Positions 1,807-51,395 of a stretch of 64,000 bases of DNA are shown here, in pieces. Origin of the DNA: Flavivirga eckloniae (GTDB lineage: Bacteria; Bacteroidota; Bacteroidia; Flavobacteriales; Flavobacteriaceae); NCBI RefSeq assembly GCF_002886045.1, contig NZ_CP025791.1, positions 1,572,001-1,636,000 on the forward strand, given 5' to 3'. The position numbers were made by a program, and so were the translations under genes. The notes beneath the pieces are model-generated. The model was not told where the DNA came from, made no database searches, and saw only the letters and a list, made by a program, of their open reading frames with translations. Within the stretch, counting starts at the first letter, position 1; each line of letters starts with the position of its first letter.

Positions 1807-2331
1807 ATGGGCAAATTAGTTTCTCCTTTAAATTTTAAGGCTTGGATTGAAGAAAACAGACATCTTTTAAAACCACCAGTTGGTAATAAATGTGTTTGGA
1901 AAGATGGCGATTTTATTGTTATGGTAGTTGGCGGCCCTAATAATAGGAAAGATTATCATTATAATGAAACCCCAGAATTCTTCTATCAAGTAGAAGGCGA
2001 TATGGTTTTAAAAATCATGGACGGCAATAAACCAAAAGATGTTCATATTAAAGAAGGTGATATTTATTTATTACCCCCTAAAGTACCGCACTCACCGCAA
2101 CGTGTAGCCAATACAGTTGGATTGGTTATTGAGTATCCGCGTTCTAAAAAAATGAAAGACGCTTTAGAGTGGTACTGCGAGAACTGTAATAATTTATTAT
2201 ATAGAAAAAAATTCAAACTCGACAATATAGAAACCGATATGCCAAAGATTTTTGACAAGTACTACTCCAGTGAAGAAAAATGTACTTGTAAAAAATGTGG
2301 TGTAAAAATGGAAGCTCCTAATAAAGTTTAA
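1807..2331 (+). CDS. nbaC: 3-hydroxyanthranilate 3,4-dioxygenase
   Basis: A 174-residue cupin that opens the ring of 3-hydroxyanthranilate to 2-amino-3-carboxymuconate semialdehyde with O2 and Fe(II). The residues fit the bacterial enzyme very closely: iron ligands H51, E57 and H95, substrate-binding R47 and R99, and a C-terminal rubredoxin-like metal site with C124/C127 and C161/C164. These positions match, or nearly match, those I recall for the Cupriavidus metallidurans enzyme. It starts with ATG and is followed 8 nt later by the ACMS decarboxylase gene, so the two are very likely co-transcribed. The full length and all key residues make this one of the surest calls here. Confidence 0.96.
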   Translation: MGKLVSPLNFKAWIEENRHLLKPPVGNKCVWKDGDFIVMVVGGPNNRKDYHYNETPEFFYQVEGDMVLKIMDGNKPKDVHIKEGDIYLLPPKVPHSPQRVANTVGLVIEYPRSKKMKDALEWYCENCNNLLYRKKFKLDNIETDMPKIFDKYYSSEEKCTCKKCGVKMEAPNKV

Positions 2332-2339
2332 ACAAAAAT

Positions 2340-3425
2340 ATGGCACGTAAACTCCGCATAAATGGACATTCACATTTACTTCCTTATCCTGAGGAAATAC
2401 CACAATTCATGAAAGAAAAGGAAATTTTCTGGGTAGATGACGAGCGTAAATATATGCTTCAAAAAGGCTGGAGAAGACCAGTAACCGATTCTAGTTTCTT
2501 CTTGCATGAAAAACTGGAATGGATGGCACGTAACAAACTCGATCATGCTGTGGTTCTAAACTTATCGCAGCTTTATGGTAACGGATTGCGTTTAGAGGAA
2601 ATGAAAAAAGCGCTTCGGTTTCAAAATGATTTTAATGCAAAAATACAGCGCGATCATCCCGAAAAGTTCACTTGTGGCTTTGTAGTACATCCAGGTTTTA
2701 TACACGGTGCCTTATATGAAATTGAACGTTGTGTTGAAGAACTTAATATGAAAGTATTGTGTTTACCAACACACTTTATGGATTCTATAGGACAATGGCG
2801 TTCGGTTTTCGATAAAGAAAATGATGCCATCTTCGAATTGGCCAATAAGTATAAGTTAGCTATCGAAATTCATCCTTACGATGGTGATAAAATGATAAAT
2901 TTAGAAAACTCTGCCTGGCGATTTCATTTAATATGGATGCTGGCACAGTGTGGCGATGCTTATCACTTCTACACCTTAAATGGTATGCAAGAGCGTTTTC
3001 CCAATATAAGAACTTGCTTTGCCCATGGTGGACAATTAGCTCAAATGAATTTAGGAAGACGGATTCAAGGTTTTGATGGCAGACCTGATTTGTTTGAAGG
3101 AAAACACCACCCAAGAAAAGCTGTCGGACACCCAAATATTTACTTCGACACCTTGGTACATGATACCGATTCGTTAAAACTCATGATAGAGCGCCAAGGC
3201 AGCAATCAAGTTATTATGGGGCTAGACGACCCCTACCCTTTAGGTGAAATGGAAAGCGATGCACAATCGTCTTATCCCGGAAAACTATTAGATTTAGCTC
3301 TGGAAAAGCAAGTAATCAACGAAAAGCAATATGACGATATATGGGAAGACAATGTACTGCGGTGGCTATTTGGTGACGACGACGATGCTAAACAAAAATT
3401 AGTACAGCGAATTTTAGCTAATTAA
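2340..3425 (+). CDS. nbaD: 2-amino-3-carboxymuconate-6-semialdehyde decarboxylase (ACMSD), amidohydrolase superfamily
   Basis: A 361-residue metal-dependent decarboxylase acting on the product of the preceding dioxygenase and steering carbon away from quinolinate/NAD synthesis. The amidohydrolase metal site is visible: HxH at H10/H12 in NGHSHLLP, a later histidine in EIHPYDG, a conserved FAHGGQ block, and the aspartate of GLDDPYPLGE near residue 296. Length matches bacterial ACMSD (about 330-360). The position directly behind the dioxygenase gene confirms the pathway. It appears to be the last gene of the kynurenine operon here, since the next stretch is a pseudogene remnant. Confidence 0.95.
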   Translation: MARKLRINGHSHLLPYPEEIPQFMKEKEIFWVDDERKYMLQKGWRRPVTDSSFFLHEKLEWMARNKLDHAVVLNLSQLYGNGLRLEEMKKALRFQNDFNAKIQRDHPEKFTCGFVVHPGFIHGALYEIERCVEELNMKVLCLPTHFMDSIGQWRSVFDKENDAIFELANKYKLAIEIHPYDGDKMINLENSAWRFHLIWMLAQCGDAYHFYTLNGMQERFPNIRTCFAHGGQLAQMNLGRRIQGFDGRPDLFEGKHHPRKAVGHPNIYFDTLVHDTDSLKLMIERQGSNQVIMGLDDPYPLGEMESDAQSSYPGKLLDLALEKQVINEKQYDDIWEDNVLRWLFGDDDDAKQKLVQRILAN

Positions 3426-3430
3426 GATAG

Positions 3431-3553
3431 TTCAGCTATCCCCAAAAAATAGGTGTCTTTTATTATGGGGTTGGTTTTATTAGTGTGATTGTTGGTATAT
3501 TTGCAATACTAACTTCGCCAGTTATTAAGAATATGATGTCTGGTGTTCATTAA
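3431..3553 (+). pseudogene. C-terminal remnant of a membrane transporter, possibly POT-family peptide transporter
   Basis: A frame open from 3431 to the stop at 3551-3553 has no start codon near its beginning. It encodes a hydrophobic helix, GVGFISVIVGIFAILTSP, followed by the polar tail VIKNMMSGVH. This resembles the last helix and tail of proton-dependent oligopeptide transporters, which often end in a short basic stretch plus 'MHGV'. No upstream part of a transporter exists, because the ACMSD gene ends six bases earlier. It reads as a leftover of a gene removed by rearrangement. The family guess rests on about 40 residues and could be wrong. Confidence 0.45.
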
Positions 3554-3562
3554 TAACGATCC

Positions 3563-4204
3563 ATGCATTTTATACCTGAAGAATTAGATGATTATGTTGT
3601 AAAGCATTCTGAGGACGAACCAGAACTTTTACAACAGCTTAATAGAGAAACGTATCAAAAGATATTACAGCCAAGAATGCTTAGCGGTCATTATCAAGGG
3701 CGTGTGTTAAGCATGATCTCTAAACTCGTTAATCCTAAAAACATTTTGGAAATAGGGACTTACACAGGGTATTCTGCTTTGTGCTTGGCCGAAGGCATAC
3801 AAGCTTCTGGAGCATTGCACACCATAGATATTAATGAAGAACTGGCAGATTTTCAACGAAAGTATTTCGATAAATCGGGTTATGGAAGTCAAATTTTTCA
3901 GCATATTGGGGATGCTCAAGAGATTATTCCTGAACTGGATAAAATGTTTGATTTAGTATTTATTGATGCAGATAAGGAAAACTACCCTAACTACTTCAAT
4001 ATTGTTATTGATAAATTAAATCCCGGAGGTATTATTTTATCAGACAATGTGCTTTGGAGTGGTAAAATTCTTGAAGATTTAAAGCCTGATGATTTTTCTA
4101 CAAAAGCGCTAATAGAATACAATTTACTCTTAAAAAATGATGATCGGGTAGAAACTGTTGTTCTACCTATCAGGGACGGGTTAACAATTAGCAGAAAAGT
4201 TTAA
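3563..4204 (+). CDS. Class I SAM-dependent O-methyltransferase (caffeoyl-CoA OMT type)
   Basis: A 213-residue methyltransferase of the Methyltransf_3 / catechol-caffeoyl-CoA OMT family. Motif I is ILEIGTYTGYSALCLAE (about 61-77). The acidic residue binding the ribose lies in ALHTIDINEE. The DLVFIDADKENYPNYF block carries the metal-binding aspartate typical of these Mg2+-dependent enzymes, followed by LSDNVLWSGK. Length is normal. The natural substrate in Bacteroidota is generally unknown; a catechol-like acceptor is the usual assumption. It stands alone, 9 nt after the transporter remnant and opposite in direction to the histidine kinase downstream. Confidence 0.9.
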   Translation: MHFIPEELDDYVVKHSEDEPELLQQLNRETYQKILQPRMLSGHYQGRVLSMISKLVNPKNILEIGTYTGYSALCLAEGIQASGALHTIDINEELADFQRKYFDKSGYGSQIFQHIGDAQEIIPELDKMFDLVFIDADKENYPNYFNIVIDKLNPGGIILSDNVLWSGKILEDLKPDDFSTKALIEYNLLLKNDDRVETVVLPIRDGLTISRKV

Positions 4205-4558
4205 ACTAGACTTTATTATATACCTACCGTTAAAATATTTCTGGACCTCATAAACGCAGTCAATATTAACTATAAAACCTCTGTATTCTTTAAAGATAAA
4301 CGGTAAAGATCTATCAATACAAGTAAACCTTGTAATTTCACACCTATTAATACCTTACCATGTTCTTTAACAATGTTATAGAAAATTATTCTAATATTAT
4401 ATTTTTATCTAATACTAAACTTTAGAATAGGTAACCATCTAAAACAAAAAACCCAATTATCTATTCTAAAAAGAAATGATAATCGGGCAACCCCCCGGTT
4501 TTTACCCATCAAGAAGATGGGCTATTTATATTACTTAAAAAGGTTAAATAATAATCTA
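4205..4558. other. Intergenic region between convergent genes
   Basis: 354 bases with no credible gene. It is AT-rich apart from a short C-rich block at about 4485-4500. That block and the hairpin at 4505-4521 are the only notable structure. The region separates the O-methyltransferase (plus) from the hybrid kinase (minus). Confidence 0.6.
4500..4521 (-). terminator. Probable terminator of the hybrid kinase gene
   Basis: A perfect 6-bp hairpin (cccatc / gatggg, loop aagaa) at 4505-4521. On the minus strand it is followed by a short 'taaaaa' run. It lies about 40 nt past the stop codon of the kinase. The tail is weak, so termination is plausible but not certain. Confidence 0.4.
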
Positions 4559-6853
4559 CTAACCTACTAATTGCATATTATTTCCAGATCTGTTTTCTTC
4601 AGACAGTTTTAACTTGCACGATTGAATATTGGTTTCGATAATCTGGTAGAACTCGTATGTGTCAAAAGGTTTATAGATAATATCATTAAAACCTGTACCA
4701 TCATCATTACAATCCTTTTTCATACTATCAACATCAGATGCTGTCAAAGCAATTATTGGGATATGCACATCAAACTCCCTAATCTGTTTGGTTGCATCCC
4801 TACCGTTCATAACCGGCATATTAATATCCATTAAAATAAGATCATACTTATTTTTTCTAGCTAAGTTTAAAGCTTCTAAACCATTACTTGCCACTTCATA
4901 TTCGTAGTTGGCCTTTTTCAATAGGTTTTGTGTAACAATTTGGTTTATCTTATTATCTTCTACTATAAGTATCTTAAACTTTTTATTTAAAGACTTTAAT
5001 TGTCGCTTACCTTTCGATTTTAACTCATTTTTATCAGCAGCATCAATTTCAAAAGTAATATCAAAACTAAACATCGTACCAACGCCTACTTCGCTTTTAA
5101 GTTCAATTTTACTTTTAAACAGTTCTACTAAATTCTTGGTAATAGAAAGCCCTAAACCAGTACCTTGGTAATTGATGTTATTATTTTCGTCTAATTGTGA
5201 AAAATTATCAAAAACAGTATCGAATTTATGCTCTGGAATACCGCAACCATTATCTTCGATTTCAAAACGCACAATAACCTCTTCCCTATTTCTATTTAGC
5301 ATGATTACGCGAAGATTAATACATCCGCTTTCTGTAAATTTTATACTGTTTCCTATTAGATTAATTAAAATTTGAGATAATCTAACATTATCACATTTTA
5401 TATATTCTGGAAGTCCTTTGTCTATTAAGACATTAATTTTATTATTGGTTTCTTTTAACCTAAAGTCGAAAGAATCAACAATGTTCTTTACTAATCCTTT
5501 TAGGTTTACCGATGTATTTTTTAATTCGATTTTATGCGACTCTATTTTACTTACTTGTAAAATATCATTAATAAGACTCAATAAATAATCTCCCGAATAT
5601 TTTAGCGAATTAATAAGCTTAACGTCACTTTCTACTAAATTGGTGTTTTCCAGAAGTAAAGATGTTATTCCAACAACACCATAAAGTGGCGTTCTTAACT
5701 CGTGTGTTACATTAGATATGAACTTCGATTTTAACTCTGATGATTTTACAGCTTCGTTACGTGCTATTTCTAATTGCTCGTTCTGAACTTTTAAGATATT
5801 AGTAAGCCTTCTTTTAGACACATAACTTTTGTAAACCGTAATTAACGATATAAGAAATAGCACCAATGCAACCGTAATAATAATGTTTAGGTTTTTTACT
5901 TTATTGGTAATTTCTACTTGTTGAATACGCTCTGTATTTGCTATTTGAGCATCCTTTTTGTAATCTTCAATAAGAATTTTTGATCCAGAAATAGACTTTC
6001 GTTCAGATTGCGCCTTATTTGTATACTTAAACATATAATCGTTATACTTTAATAACGCATCGTATGCCTGTTTATCTAAACCTTGCTTATCTGATGACCA
6101 AGCTAGTTTTTCATATACATTAAGTAAAAGTAAATTATGTAGTTGCTTATTACCAGTTACGCTTTTATCTAAAAACACCAATGCTTCATTTAATTTTTTA
6201 TTAGCATTGCTATACAATTCCTTATTTATAAAGTATAATCCTTGAGTATATTTTAAACTTCCATAATCTTTCGCGCCTGCCTTGAATTCATTCAGGCTTT
6301 CCTCTGCTCTTAAAAGGTATATCAGTGCTTTTTCCGTTAGATTATTCTCTAAATACACCTGGCACAAGTTAATTTGAATATCAAATAGAACTTGTTTTTG
6401 TTTTTCAATGTTATTATGATCCTTAACATTACCATTTGAGGCATATTTTAAAGCATTCTCATAATAATAATGCGCTTGACTAAATGATTTTTTTTCTTTA
6501 AACAGCTTTCCCAAATTTAAACATGAGTTTGCTATAAGGTAATTATCATCTATTTCCAATGAAGATTTAAGCGAAGTTACAAATCTATTCTCTGCAGCGT
6601 CGAACTCTTCTATAGAACTATAAATTAAACCTTGAATAAAATTAGCTAACGCGTTACCATATACATCATTAATGGTATTCGACATTTTTTTAGACTGATC
6701 AATAGAAGACAGCGCATCAACAATCTGATTACTATTGTAAAATCTTAAAGCTCTTGAGTTTAAACTATCTATTTGAAAGATTGTGTGCCGATCATCTTGA
6801 GAAAACGACAACATAGTAGCACTCATAAAACACACAAGTAGGATTGCTTTCAT
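4559..6853 (-). CDS. Hybrid sensor histidine kinase/response regulator with N-terminal TPRs
   Basis: A 764-residue membrane sensor. Order: signal peptide (1-18), periplasmic TPR-like helical repeats (about 25-300), one transmembrane helix (about 318-343, NLNIIITVALVLFLISLITV), a short coiled coil, HisKA with the phosphorylated His in SNVTHELRTPLYG (about 380), HATPase_c with NxxxN (LINLIGNSIKFTESG), DNGCGIP and GTGLGLSI boxes, and a C-terminal REC domain with the phospho-acceptor Asp in DLILMDINMP (about 673). It probably senses an envelope signal and passes phosphate to an external regulator. No cognate regulator is adjacent. All key motifs are intact. Confidence 0.95.
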   Translation of the reverse strand: MKAILLVCFMSATMLSFSQDDRHTIFQIDSLNSRALRFYNSNQIVDALSSIDQSKKMSNTINDVYGNALANFIQGLIYSSIEEFDAAENRFVTSLKSSLEIDDNYLIANSCLNLGKLFKEKKSFSQAHYYYENALKYASNGNVKDHNNIEKQKQVLFDIQINLCQVYLENNLTEKALIYLLRAEESLNEFKAGAKDYGSLKYTQGLYFINKELYSNANKKLNEALVFLDKSVTGNKQLHNLLLLNVYEKLAWSSDKQGLDKQAYDALLKYNDYMFKYTNKAQSERKSISGSKILIEDYKKDAQIANTERIQQVEITNKVKNLNIIITVALVLFLISLITVYKSYVSKRRLTNILKVQNEQLEIARNEAVKSSELKSKFISNVTHELRTPLYGVVGITSLLLENTNLVESDVKLINSLKYSGDYLLSLINDILQVSKIESHKIELKNTSVNLKGLVKNIVDSFDFRLKETNNKINVLIDKGLPEYIKCDNVRLSQILINLIGNSIKFTESGCINLRVIMLNRNREEVIVRFEIEDNGCGIPEHKFDTVFDNFSQLDENNNINYQGTGLGLSITKNLVELFKSKIELKSEVGVGTMFSFDITFEIDAADKNELKSKGKRQLKSLNKKFKILIVEDNKINQIVTQNLLKKANYEYEVASNGLEALNLARKNKYDLILMDINMPVMNGRDATKQIREFDVHIPIIALTASDVDSMKKDCNDDGTGFNDIIYKPFDTYEFYQIIETNIQSCKLKLSEENRSGNNMQLVG

Positions 6854-49857: not shown

Positions 49858-49874
49858 TTAACGAACTTCGTTAA
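49858..49874. promoter_or_regulatory. Perfect 17-bp dyad, candidate operator of the deaminase-STING genes
   Basis: ttaacgaa-c-ttcgttaa: two 8-bp arms around one base, 27 nt before the ATG at 49902. It has the size and symmetry of a dimeric repressor site. No T-run follows, so a terminator is unlikely. No other copy was noticed in the window. Confidence 0.45.
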
Positions 49875-49901
49875 AATCATTACAATAAAGCCAAAATCCT
49901 G

Positions 49902-49999
49902 ATGAGCCAAAAAAAAATATTATAAATAATTTTAAAGTAATAACATGTCTAACTGTCATTTTTCAATTGGTTGCATGTACGCAAGGAAATAAGAAAAAT
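49902..49999 (+). other. Out-of-frame lipoprotein signal sequence behind an A9 tract
   Basis: ATG 49902 (MSQKK...) hits a stop at 49923. With ten As instead of nine at 49909-49917 it would read into the frame of FKVITCLTVIFQLVAC-TQGNKKN and on into the deaminase, giving a normal type II signal peptide with lipobox LVAC. Either a sequencing error, a phase-variable tract, or transcriptional slippage. Confidence 0.6.
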
Positions 50000-50695
50000 A
50001 TGAGTGATAAAAAGGAATCAAAAATAAAAATTTCAAAAACCAGTGAGTCAATTGAACTTGATGAGATACACTCATTGCTAAGTTATTCAATCGTACAAAA
50101 GTTCTGGGAAAATGATGATCGAAATGGACGAGGCTATAATGTAGGTGTAATTTTAGTTGATGAAAATAAAAATATTGTTGATTGGGATATAAACTCAGTT
50201 AATAAAACTGAAAACAGCACTCAACATGGAGAGATGAGATTAATCTCAAGATACTTAGATAAAGATGAACTATATTCACTCAAAGGATATACAATGTATC
50301 CAACACTTGAGCCCTGTGCAATGTGCGCAGGTATGATGACAATGACTAACGTGTATCGTACAGTAAACGGCCAAATGGATTATTTTTATTCTAAAGCATT
50401 AGAGCGCTTGTCTATTGACACCAGAGAATGTGGTGGATACCCTCCTTACCCAAGAACGGTAATATCGGAAATTAGCCCTTCTTCAATTTCTACACGGTTA
50501 GATGCTGAATACAAACAATACACTAACGCAGGGAACAAACCCATAATTACAAAATTCCTGTCTACTTATAAGGCAAAAACTATATATGATGATGCATTTA
50601 ATCAATTCATAAATTTTAAATGTAAGTTTCCTGAAAATAAAACCAAATATGAAAATGCTATTAAATTTTATAACTCTCTTCCAGAATCAATCTAA
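50000..50695 (+). CDS. Cytidine/nucleoside deaminase-like protein, first gene of the STING module
   Basis: A 231-residue protein counted from ATG 50000. It has a CDA-superfamily zinc site: H76 and E78 in TQHGEMRL, C106 and C109 in EPCAMCAGMM, as in Tad/guanine-deaminase-type enzymes. It should therefore hydrolyse an amino group from a base or nucleotide; substrate unknown. The C-terminal 100 residues (RECGGYPPYPRTVIS, ITKFLSTYKAKTIYDDA) are an extension I do not recognise. The frame is open upstream to 49889 and there encodes FKVITCLTVIFQLVAC, a lipoprotein signal, but without any ATG. The ATG at 49902 would join it only if the A9 run at 49909-49917 had one more A. It may thus be either cytosolic or a lipoprotein. 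The STING-like gene begins 1 nt after its stop. Confidence 0.82.
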   Translation: MSDKKESKIKISKTSESIELDEIHSLLSYSIVQKFWENDDRNGRGYNVGVILVDENKNIVDWDINSVNKTENSTQHGEMRLISRYLDKDELYSLKGYTMYPTLEPCAMCAGMMTMTNVYRTVNGQMDYFYSKALERLSIDTRECGGYPPYPRTVISEISPSSISTRLDAEYKQYTNAGNKPIITKFLSTYKAKTIYDDAFNQFINFKCKFPENKTKYENAIKFYNSLPESI

Positions 50696-50696
50696 T

Positions 50697-51395
50697 ATGA
50701 TTGCTGAACACATAGATTTGATATCTGGTATTATTGGTATAACTACTGCCATCATTGCTTTATACAAGTATATCAAAGAGAAGCGGAAAAATAAAGAATT
50801 AGAAGATGAAGTACGTCATATAGCTTCAACTGGAGTTGCTCTTGGATACTATTACAATTTTGCCAAAGATATTTTTTTGATTTTAAGGTTGGCCAGACTT
50901 AAAGTAGAGCTATACAAAAAGGATGGTAAGGAAATAGATCAAGTACGAGAATTTAAAACCAAAGACGTAACATTAAGAGTAGTAATGCCAAGGAATTTAG
51001 AACAAGACTCTATCGATGAGGCAATTAATTTCATGTATTCTTATCCAAAGGCAGATATAGTAAGATTAGATAATGAGAGGAATATAGGAATAAATTATTT
51101 ATTGGATGAGACTGGAAAATTGGTTATAATTGATTTTCCTAAACCTTTAAAAGCTGTAAGGATGCATCTTTTAAGTGAAGAAGAATTTAAAGAAATTATT
51201 GCCAAAGGTAAATTTACTCAAGATGAAGATATATTTGATACGCCTGAATGGAAGAAAGCCGAAAAAGATGAGATGGAGAACTTCCAAAAAGCAATTATCA
51301 AACTAATAAAAAGAGATGATTTTGGAGTGCCAATAAATAAAATAGAATTCGTTCCCATTCAGAATTTGAATAATATTATGCAGAACAATACATAA
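50697..51395 (+). CDS. Bacterial STING-like protein with one N-terminal membrane helix (TM-STING)
   Basis: A 232-residue protein started at ATG 50697, 1 nt after the deaminase stop; an upstream in-frame ATG would overlap the deaminase by 47 nt. Residues 7-24 form one membrane helix (LISGIIGITTAIIALYKY), then basic KEKRKNK puts the rest in the cytosol. From about 43 to 222 the pattern fits prokaryotic STING domains: GVALGYYYNFAKDIF (dimer helix start, compare GLAWSYYIGYL in human STING), LRVVMPRNL after a strand, the lid-like region about 118-140, KLVIIDFPKPL (the bacterial c-di-GMP-contacting D.P.TL-type loop, here with K in place of T), and EMENFQKAIIKLIKRDDF at the end. Known bacterial STINGs are CBASS effectors next to a CdnE cyclase; none is present here. 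Family call is by pattern only. Confidence 0.7.
   Translation: MIAEHIDLISGIIGITTAIIALYKYIKEKRKNKELEDEVRHIASTGVALGYYYNFAKDIFLILRLARLKVELYKKDGKEIDQVREFKTKDVTLRVVMPRNLEQDSIDEAINFMYSYPKADIVRLDNERNIGINYLLDETGKLVIIDFPKPLKAVRMHLLSEEEFKEIIAKGKFTQDEDIFDTPEWKKAEKDEMENFQKAIIKLIKRDDFGVPINKIEFVPIQNLNNIMQNNT

Follow-up and report, generated by a model that had tools for sequence, protein, structure and literature searches.

Bacterial STING proteins are known from operons in which a CD-NTase supplies their ligand, as described in the available part of PMC8748872, and the mechanism of the bacterial TM-STING is stated to be unclear in the accessible portion of PMC10732462. In STING-type CBASS, the CD-NTase is combined with TIR-STING (Cap12) or with TM-STING. 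A deaminase, KomA, belongs to another defence system, Kongming. There, the deaminated purine nucleotide dITP, made with KomA, serves as the immune signal and activates KomB-KomC, which leads to NAD depletion (available text of PMC12948488). Adenosine deaminases also take part in phage defence in RADAR and Cad1, where the accessible parts of the published accounts (PMC9994260, PMC11645235) place the deaminase within the effector.

The locus described here lies in a window of 64,000 nucleotides from Flavivirga eckloniae (contig NZ_CP025791.1, positions 1,572,001 to 1,636,000 of the forward strand), the genome of which comprises one contig of 5.67 Mb. A gene for a TadA-like deaminase (50000–50695, plus strand) is followed, one base after its stop codon, by a gene for a TM-STING (50697–51395, plus strand), and the two are likely to form a two-gene operon. 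The locus resembles STING CBASS in the STING domain, in the TIR- or TM-fused effector and in the two-gene arrangement, but a deaminase occupies the place of the CD-NTase, no CD-NTase was noticed beside the pair, and the STING-type cyclase model found nothing in any of the six genomes searched. The likeness to Kongming would lie in a deaminated purine nucleotide as the immune signal; however, STING has no part in that system according to the available text, whereas inspection by eye of the reading frames neighbouring our pair showed neither a HAM1-like nor a SIR2-like gene. In contrast to RADAR and Cad1, as far as their accessible descriptions go, the deaminase is paired here with a STING receptor/effector. 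In our opinion, it is this deaminase–STING pair, with no CD-NTase in sight, that is the notable finding, and it is larger than the question of the start codon raised by the sequence-only reading of the window.

The deaminase comprises 231 aa from ATG 50000 and carries the motifs H76-G-E78 and P-C106-x-x-C109. The residues H76, E78, C106 and C109, characteristic of the deaminase superfamily (PF00383), were invariant in all 11 aligned rows. Among Pfam families, PF00383 gave the best match, followed by MafB19. The MafB19 and Bd3614 deaminase folds are linked to toxins; a toxin reading was set aside, as the protein fits the general PF00383 model best and a look by eye at the surroundings showed neither secretion nor immunity genes. 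The PDB neighbours, by sequence as well as by fold, were mostly TadA-type tRNA deaminases first, with guanosine and cytosine deaminases after them. The tRNA adenosine deaminase TadA, to which the TLEPCxMCAG motif belongs, is the closest characterised relative by both measures, and the motif is part of the likeness. However, the protein reached 39.8 bits against the TadA equivalog cut-off of 150 bits, and about 100 more residues follow its zinc motif. A separate TadA-like match was present elsewhere in the genome (G000:C1:2472266, among the matches listed). The predicted structure of the deaminase was of moderate quality (pLDDT 74.4, with residues 105–139 under 50), and for this reason no claim about the pocket is based on it.

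To the deaminase family, TadA-like matches being excluded, belong at least 19 genomes: the window, L001–L007, L012–L014, L048 (genome G481), L049–L053, L145 and L146. This count leaves aside the short TadA-like proteins (L008, L009 and L015–L029) and the remaining weak matches, which were taken as TadA-like from the matched range; some loci are duplicates (L011 of L001; L010, L039 and L047 of the window; L144 of L005; L148 of L004; L147 of L146). The closest relative, L001, is a Flavivirga (sp. 57AJ16) whose deaminase is 75–76% identical to that of the window, and L002 comes from a Bacteroidia MAG with a deaminase 68% identical. The family was found in 7 of the 395 Bacteroidota genomes drawn (the window, L048 and L049–L053, the last five representing one genus) and in 3 of the 337 genomes from the phylum of G583 (L145, L146 and L005), while among the 247 genomes drawn from the class of G582 it was met only in the genome of L004 itself.

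In 7 of the 19 family genomes found, the deaminase gene has a STING gene as its same-strand neighbour, within flanks of 1.5–7 kb as a rule and shorter ones at contig ends, so that a STING lying farther away would escape this count. The deaminase precedes a TM-STING in the window, L001, L002 and L004 and a TIR-STING in L048, and it follows a TIR-STING in L003 and L005. The pair occurs in either gene order, with TM-STING as well as TIR-STING, and in two phyla, Bacteroidota and Verrucomicrobiota. On a tree of 15 members (built without L007, which lies in two frames, L051, the same protein as L050, L145 and L146), the pairing needs at least one change and the export signal at least four, with many deep forks open. 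We consider the deaminase–STING pair to be a functional unit with a probability of about 0.8. No description of such a pair was found in the titles and abstract openings of the literature, subscription papers being mostly outside reach, nor was one found in the literature on Kongming/dITP and c-di-IMP.

In the same Bacteroidota draw, 17 STING matches were obtained in 16 of the 395 genomes, one of them (L040) being a match in a GC-rich frame. The neighbour was a CD-NTase in seven cases, a deaminase in two (the window and L043/L048) and a DUF4440 lipoprotein in two (L037 and L038); for the other six, inspection of the ORF lists by eye revealed none of these partners within up to 1.5 kb on either side. 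In L037 (808–1965) and L038 (1414–2552), two genomes of one genus, the gene for the DUF4440/SnoaL-like lipoprotein stands directly 5′ of the TM-STING gene, and its product appears to be a second STING partner other than CD-NTase.

The PADLOC model of the STING-type cyclase (CdnE, PDLC00784) matched all seven of these CD-NTases adjoining STING and detected the positive control, genome G217. It gave no match in the six pair-bearing genomes searched, namely G000 (the window), G009, G481 (L048), G581 (L003), G582 (L004) and G583 (L005); L002, a MAG contig of 4.9 kb, was outside the six-genome searches. Among the ORFs next to the pair, no CD-NTase of the kind expected in a CBASS operon was noticed at any of the seven loci. 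SMODS was likewise not found in G000, which is a weak test, since the cyclase of L042 matched no Pfam family. GGDEF, the c-di-GMP synthase domain, was absent from all six genomes, and a c-di-AMP synthase domain was present in five of them and missing in G481. The pair looks like a CD-NTase-free STING module.

The STING protein of the window consists of one N-terminal hydrophobic helix and the prokaryotic STING domain PF20300, which scored 80.1 bits against a cut-off of 27.1, and it also matches the STING part of the PADLOC CBASS effector model. Its predicted structure had a pLDDT of 81.7. The first 28 PDB fold matches were bacterial STINGs, most of them ligand-bound, and the fold matches include the bacterial STING structure 8hwj, titled with c-di-AMP bound. 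Based on the basic residues that follow the hydrophobic helix, we infer that the STING domain is cytosolic. According to the available part of PMC8748872, bacterial STING recognises guanine in its c-di-GMP pocket with an Arg (contacting O6 and N7) and an Asp (contacting N2), together with a Phe or Leu that stacks and an aromatic residue in the lid, and MySTING did not bind c-di-AMP. Mapped by alignment and not by structure, the pocket residues N54, F55, R128 and D146 are kept in the STING of the window. The position of the lid aromatic is occupied by Ile in the window, L001 and L002 and by Phe in L004, and the lid of L043 was not clearly aligned. At the position of the phosphate-contacting Thr, the four TM-STINGs paired with a deaminase have Lys, whereas the three TIR-STINGs so paired have Thr.

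The region upstream of the deaminase contains a tract of nine A (A9, 49909–49917, plus strand). As the sequence-only reading had noticed, ATG 49902 runs through these nine As into a stop; the short frame is ATG AGC CAA AAA AAA ATA TTA TAA (49902–49925, plus strand), encoding MSQKKIL and ending with TAA at 49923–49925, and it is out of frame with the deaminase. The deaminase frame itself is indeed uninterrupted between 49889 and its stop codon (50693–50695) and reads ...NIINNFKVITCLTVIFQLVAC-TQGNKKN-MSDKK, that is, a lipobox signal without a start codon leading into the deaminase, and a single added A would fuse ATG 49902 with the signal frame exactly, both as had been proposed. This frame has no ATG before 50000, and its TTG at 49967 falls within the signal. 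Within the tract, CAA AAA AAA provides an A_AAA_AAA heptamer in frame with ATG 49902, which, like the STING gene downstream, had escaped the sequence-only reading. Under the slippery heptamer rule for -1 ribosomal frameshifting, ribosomal slippage by -1 would therefore join the two frames as well as one added A would. Farther upstream, 5′ of the operon, lies a 17-nt palindrome without strand assignment, TTAACGAA-c-TTCGTTAA (TTAACGAAcTTCGTTAA, 49858–49874), a possible operator. It had one occurrence in the 464 kb sampled and was absent by eye from the upstream DNA of L001 and L002.

The lipoprotein signal, IINNFKVITCLTVIFQLVAC-T (49919–49981, plus strand), has the lipobox LVAC with the Cys codon at 49976–49978 and, judged by eye and by hydropathy, the basic n-region, the hydrophobic stretch and the lipobox Cys of bacterial lipoproteins. 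The corresponding N-termini are MIKYLKILTYLIFAFLLVGC-LENNKNN in L001, with the lipobox LVGC, and MKILYLLLIIVTFVNC-TNQG in L002, with the lipobox FVNC; both begin with a plain ATG that has an in-frame stop codon just 5′ of it. On the strength of these sequences, the signal is real and conserved in two close relatives. The idea that relatives might lack the hydrophobic segment proved true of the distant STING-paired L003, L004 and L048 but false for L001 and L002. Neither an A9 tract nor an earlier ATG in the signal frame occurs in L001 and L002. The usual in-frame start codon before the signal, present in both of these relatives, is missing in the window, where ATT is found.

In a gap-free alignment, the ATG of L001 corresponds to this ATT (49919–49921, plus strand), the presumed ancestral start. 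A comparison of 27 codons beginning at 49919 showed 28 differences in 81 nt between the window and L001, with neither an indel nor a stop. Of these codons, 5 are identical, 6 carry synonymous changes and 16 non-synonymous ones; the segment has stayed hydrophobic and retains the lipobox Leu-Val as well as the Cys codon. Identity between the two in 15-nt segments, given by segment start, was 0.20–0.33 at 49889–49899 and 0.47 at 49904, reached at least 0.60 from 49909 across most of the signal and had its maximum within the signal at 0.80, the values starting about 10 nt before ATT 49919 being inflated by A-richness. The rise from 0.47 to at least 0.60 at 49904–49909 indicates that recognisable similarity begins near ATT 49919. 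L001 has no ATG at the place aligned with 49902; its own out-of-frame ATG is situated 13 nt 5′ of its start and differs in position and frame from that of the window. Since the ATG of L001 falls on ATT 49919 and similarity drops upstream of it, ATG 49902 is most likely accidental. A change of ATG to ATT at 49919 would be the simplest reading of the start loss. With relatives that begin with a plain ATG, have no A9 and, in L001, align this ATG with ATT 49919, the tract can be read as a leader before a mutated start.

The best 15-nt match between the window and L001 in the whole 5′ region (0.87) was at 49994–50008, around ATG 50000, the ungapped comparison being out of register beyond about 50004. 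The internal Met is equidistant from the lipobox Cys in both (CTQGNKKNM in the window, CLENNKNNM in L001), and in L002 a Met occurs three residues later. The STING-paired deaminases without a signal start with MNKEKDD (L003), MNLPLSD (L004) and MNDANTE (L048). Given the position of ATG 50000 in the best-matching stretch and the short form alone in L003, L004 and L048, a cytosolic product from ATG 50000, as suggested earlier, is plausible, the argument from the internal ATG covering a small sample of two sequences, loosely three. Export signals, recognised by eye, are common in the family (L001, L002, L005, L012–L014, L049–L053 and L146). The STING-paired L001, L002 and L005 keep theirs, so a cytosolic role of the deaminase would not be general.

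To see how unusual the arrangement is, a genome sample of 1.264 Mb was used, with 968 genes called by a simple ORF caller of our own and without annotation. In three of the 968 genes, an A/T run of at least 8 had an out-of-frame ATG 5′ of it, and the 30 nt after the run lacked an ATG in frame; two of these genes look ordinary on reading, and the deaminase gene alone remains. One ordinary case (L061, near 13045, minus strand) is by eye an apparent dnaG with an apparent TTG start behind A12, and the other has a normal ATG start 63 nt after T8. Of the 810 genes whose start is normal, one has an out-of-frame ATG farther 5′ that could be fused by a run of at least 9; for runs of at least 8, 7 and 5, the numbers were 2, 9 and 45. 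The combination of ATG, A9 and signal is thus more than a common coincidence, yet a scan for oddities will meet such cases. Runs of at least nine A within 30 nt 5′ of the first ATG were counted eight times among the 968 genes, and the first 60 coding nt of these genes included five A9, one T9 and no A10. Just one frameshift-like gene at a homopolymer was present in the 1.264 Mb (L059, A7), and an earlier pass over 464 kb under another rule had given none.

The depletion of runs was assessed by synonymous-codon shuffles of 925 genes (1.01 Mb of coding DNA sampled). A8 was observed 142 times against 189.6 expected (sd 8.9), A9 21 times against 59.1 (sd 6.3), A10 once against 21.9 (sd 4.0) and T9 once against 23.7 (sd 3.4), and A6 was in excess (1612 observed, 1409 expected). 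The avoidance of A9/T9 in coding DNA is treated as a sign that such runs slip in the available part of PMC1088944. By this criterion, the depletion of A9/T9 and longer runs implies that runs of nine A are probably slippery in this organism.

The reading that we place first, at slightly short of an even chance, is that A9 is an A-rich leader before a mutated start codon, rather than an evolved switch. It is favoured by the gap-free alignment of the signal, with the ATG of L001 on the ATT of the window, by the plain ATG without a tract in both close relatives and by the A runs of at least nine that also precede other genes of this genome. However, ATT is very rare as a start codon, the loss of a start is unusual in an otherwise constrained gene, and the finding of a fusable ATG with a run of at least 9 in just 1 of 810 genes favours slippage or a hidden A. 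Such a hidden A would mean that the true tract is A10, owing to an assembly error or to an off-variant clone, and that the protein is a plain lipoprotein from ATG 49902, phase-variable if the length of the tract varies. The exact fusion of ATG, tract and signal, the rarity of this arrangement by chance and the presence of the signal in the relatives agree with A10, which we nevertheless find rather doubtful. The assembly looks clean, and with a single homopolymer frameshift-like gene in 1.264 Mb an assembly error is not favoured as the default explanation, though an error at one site could have occurred; A10 is nearly absent from coding DNA (1 in 925 genes against about 22 expected) and entirely so from the first 60 coding nt of the 968 genes; and the extra N-terminus would have no homology to L001, whose start is at the position of ATT 49919.

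It is also possible that the tract acts as a switch, with polymerase slippage on A9 (+1 A) or -1 frameshifting yielding the lipoprotein and the cytosolic deaminase in a fixed fraction. In Thermus dnaX, nine As give about 50% of the product by slippage, in a shorter form (Baranov et al., available part of PMC1088944). Both the tract here and the 9A slippage sites in Thermus dnaX and IS elements, as far as that text describes them, combine A9 with alternative frames, but ours stands at the gene start and is not common to relatives. The strong depletion of A9/T9 and longer runs in coding DNA, the heptamer in the right frame and the coincidence itself, seen in one of 810 genes, would suit a switch. 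For programmed transcriptional slippage, the run is of the proper kind, an A9 that joins the frames with +1 A, but neither the tract nor the upstream ATG is conserved in L001 and L002; for -1 frameshifting, no stimulatory RNA structure was detected downstream (z 0.79) despite the heptamer. A switch is therefore unlikely and not the best reading. Decay of the 5′ end, with the export signal as a dead remnant and the gene becoming a pseudogene or silent, would account for the start codon lost relative to L001. It is very improbable, as the remaining frame runs unbroken for 231 aa, with the residues for zinc binding and catalysis in place, the deaminase retains 75–76% identity to that of L001 and the downstream STING is 90% identical to its counterpart there.

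Returning to the mutated start codon, we infer the start in use, the localisation, the signalling partnership and the ligand chemistry as follows. Before the split from the Flavivirga relative, the deaminase would have started from an ATG at 49919 and carried a lipoprotein signal; in the window the codon is now ATT. With ATG changed to ATT, a leader tract and an accidental ATG 49902, the lipoprotein form, if made, would be produced at a low level, by AUU initiation or, at the tract, by infrequent slippage or -1 frameshifting. The main product would then be the cytosolic deaminase from ATG 50000, which would share its side of the membrane with the STING domain. We take the pair to be a STING signalling or defence module, with the deaminase in the role of the CD-NTase: it would modify nucleotides so as to produce the STING ligand or to control it. 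The start-codon change offers a natural case for finding out whether the deaminase works inside the cell or outside it. The recurrent pairing of STING with a deaminase, in either gene order and with no STING-type cyclase found in the genomes searched, points either to another source of the signal or to the regulation of STING by nucleotide deamination, and the pair suggests a type of immune signalling that has yet to be described.

A more specific proposal, which we regard as a long shot, is a CD-NTase-free immune pathway in which a deaminated adenine nucleotide, possibly derived from the housekeeping c-di-AMP, mimics guanine and serves as the STING ligand, the choice of start setting the cytosolic supply. 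The conversion of adenine to hypoxanthine gives a guanine-like O6/N7 edge, so that a nucleotide which STING does not bind could become one that it does. The STING of the window retains the Arg and the Asp that read guanine, and the distribution of synthases is compatible with this proposal (GGDEF and CdnE in 0/6 genomes, the c-di-AMP synthase domain in 5/6). However, G481 is without a c-di-AMP synthase domain and the lid of its STING is not clearly aligned, the paired deaminases L001, L002 and L005 bear export signals, and the bacterial STING 8hwj has c-di-AMP itself bound; deamination may accordingly be unneeded or may even remove a ligand.

For the copy in the window, an origin from a mobile element or phage was considered and rejected, since searches of plasmids (E 1e-15) and of phages (E 1e-10) gave no match. 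A scan of viral contigs gave 9 loci, all with 26–41% identity over part of the query. The DNA upstream of same-genus loci could be read at three of 11 other loci (L124, L125 and L128), and the upstream genes were different there. L005 is the only locus with a phage terminase neighbour: its TIR-STING and deaminase genes (2305–5690) lie downstream of a gene for the terminase large subunit, with an apparent serine recombinase, identified by eye, further on, which suggests that a prophage or another mobile element carries the pair. In L002 (3050–4941), genes resembling an EcoRI-type adenine methyltransferase and DUF262 were recognised by eye downstream of the pair, and this may be a defence neighbourhood. 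L012 (1372–2577) and L013 (1093–2298), from congeneric genomes, encode a deaminase lipoprotein with a C-terminal extension and have no STING nearby; the extension, scanned in L012, had no Pfam match. The deaminase relative in a Rickettsiaceae MAG (L007, 4974–5646) is split into two reading pieces, and L146 (467–2015) contains two tandem deaminase copies, one of which has a signal-like N-terminus.
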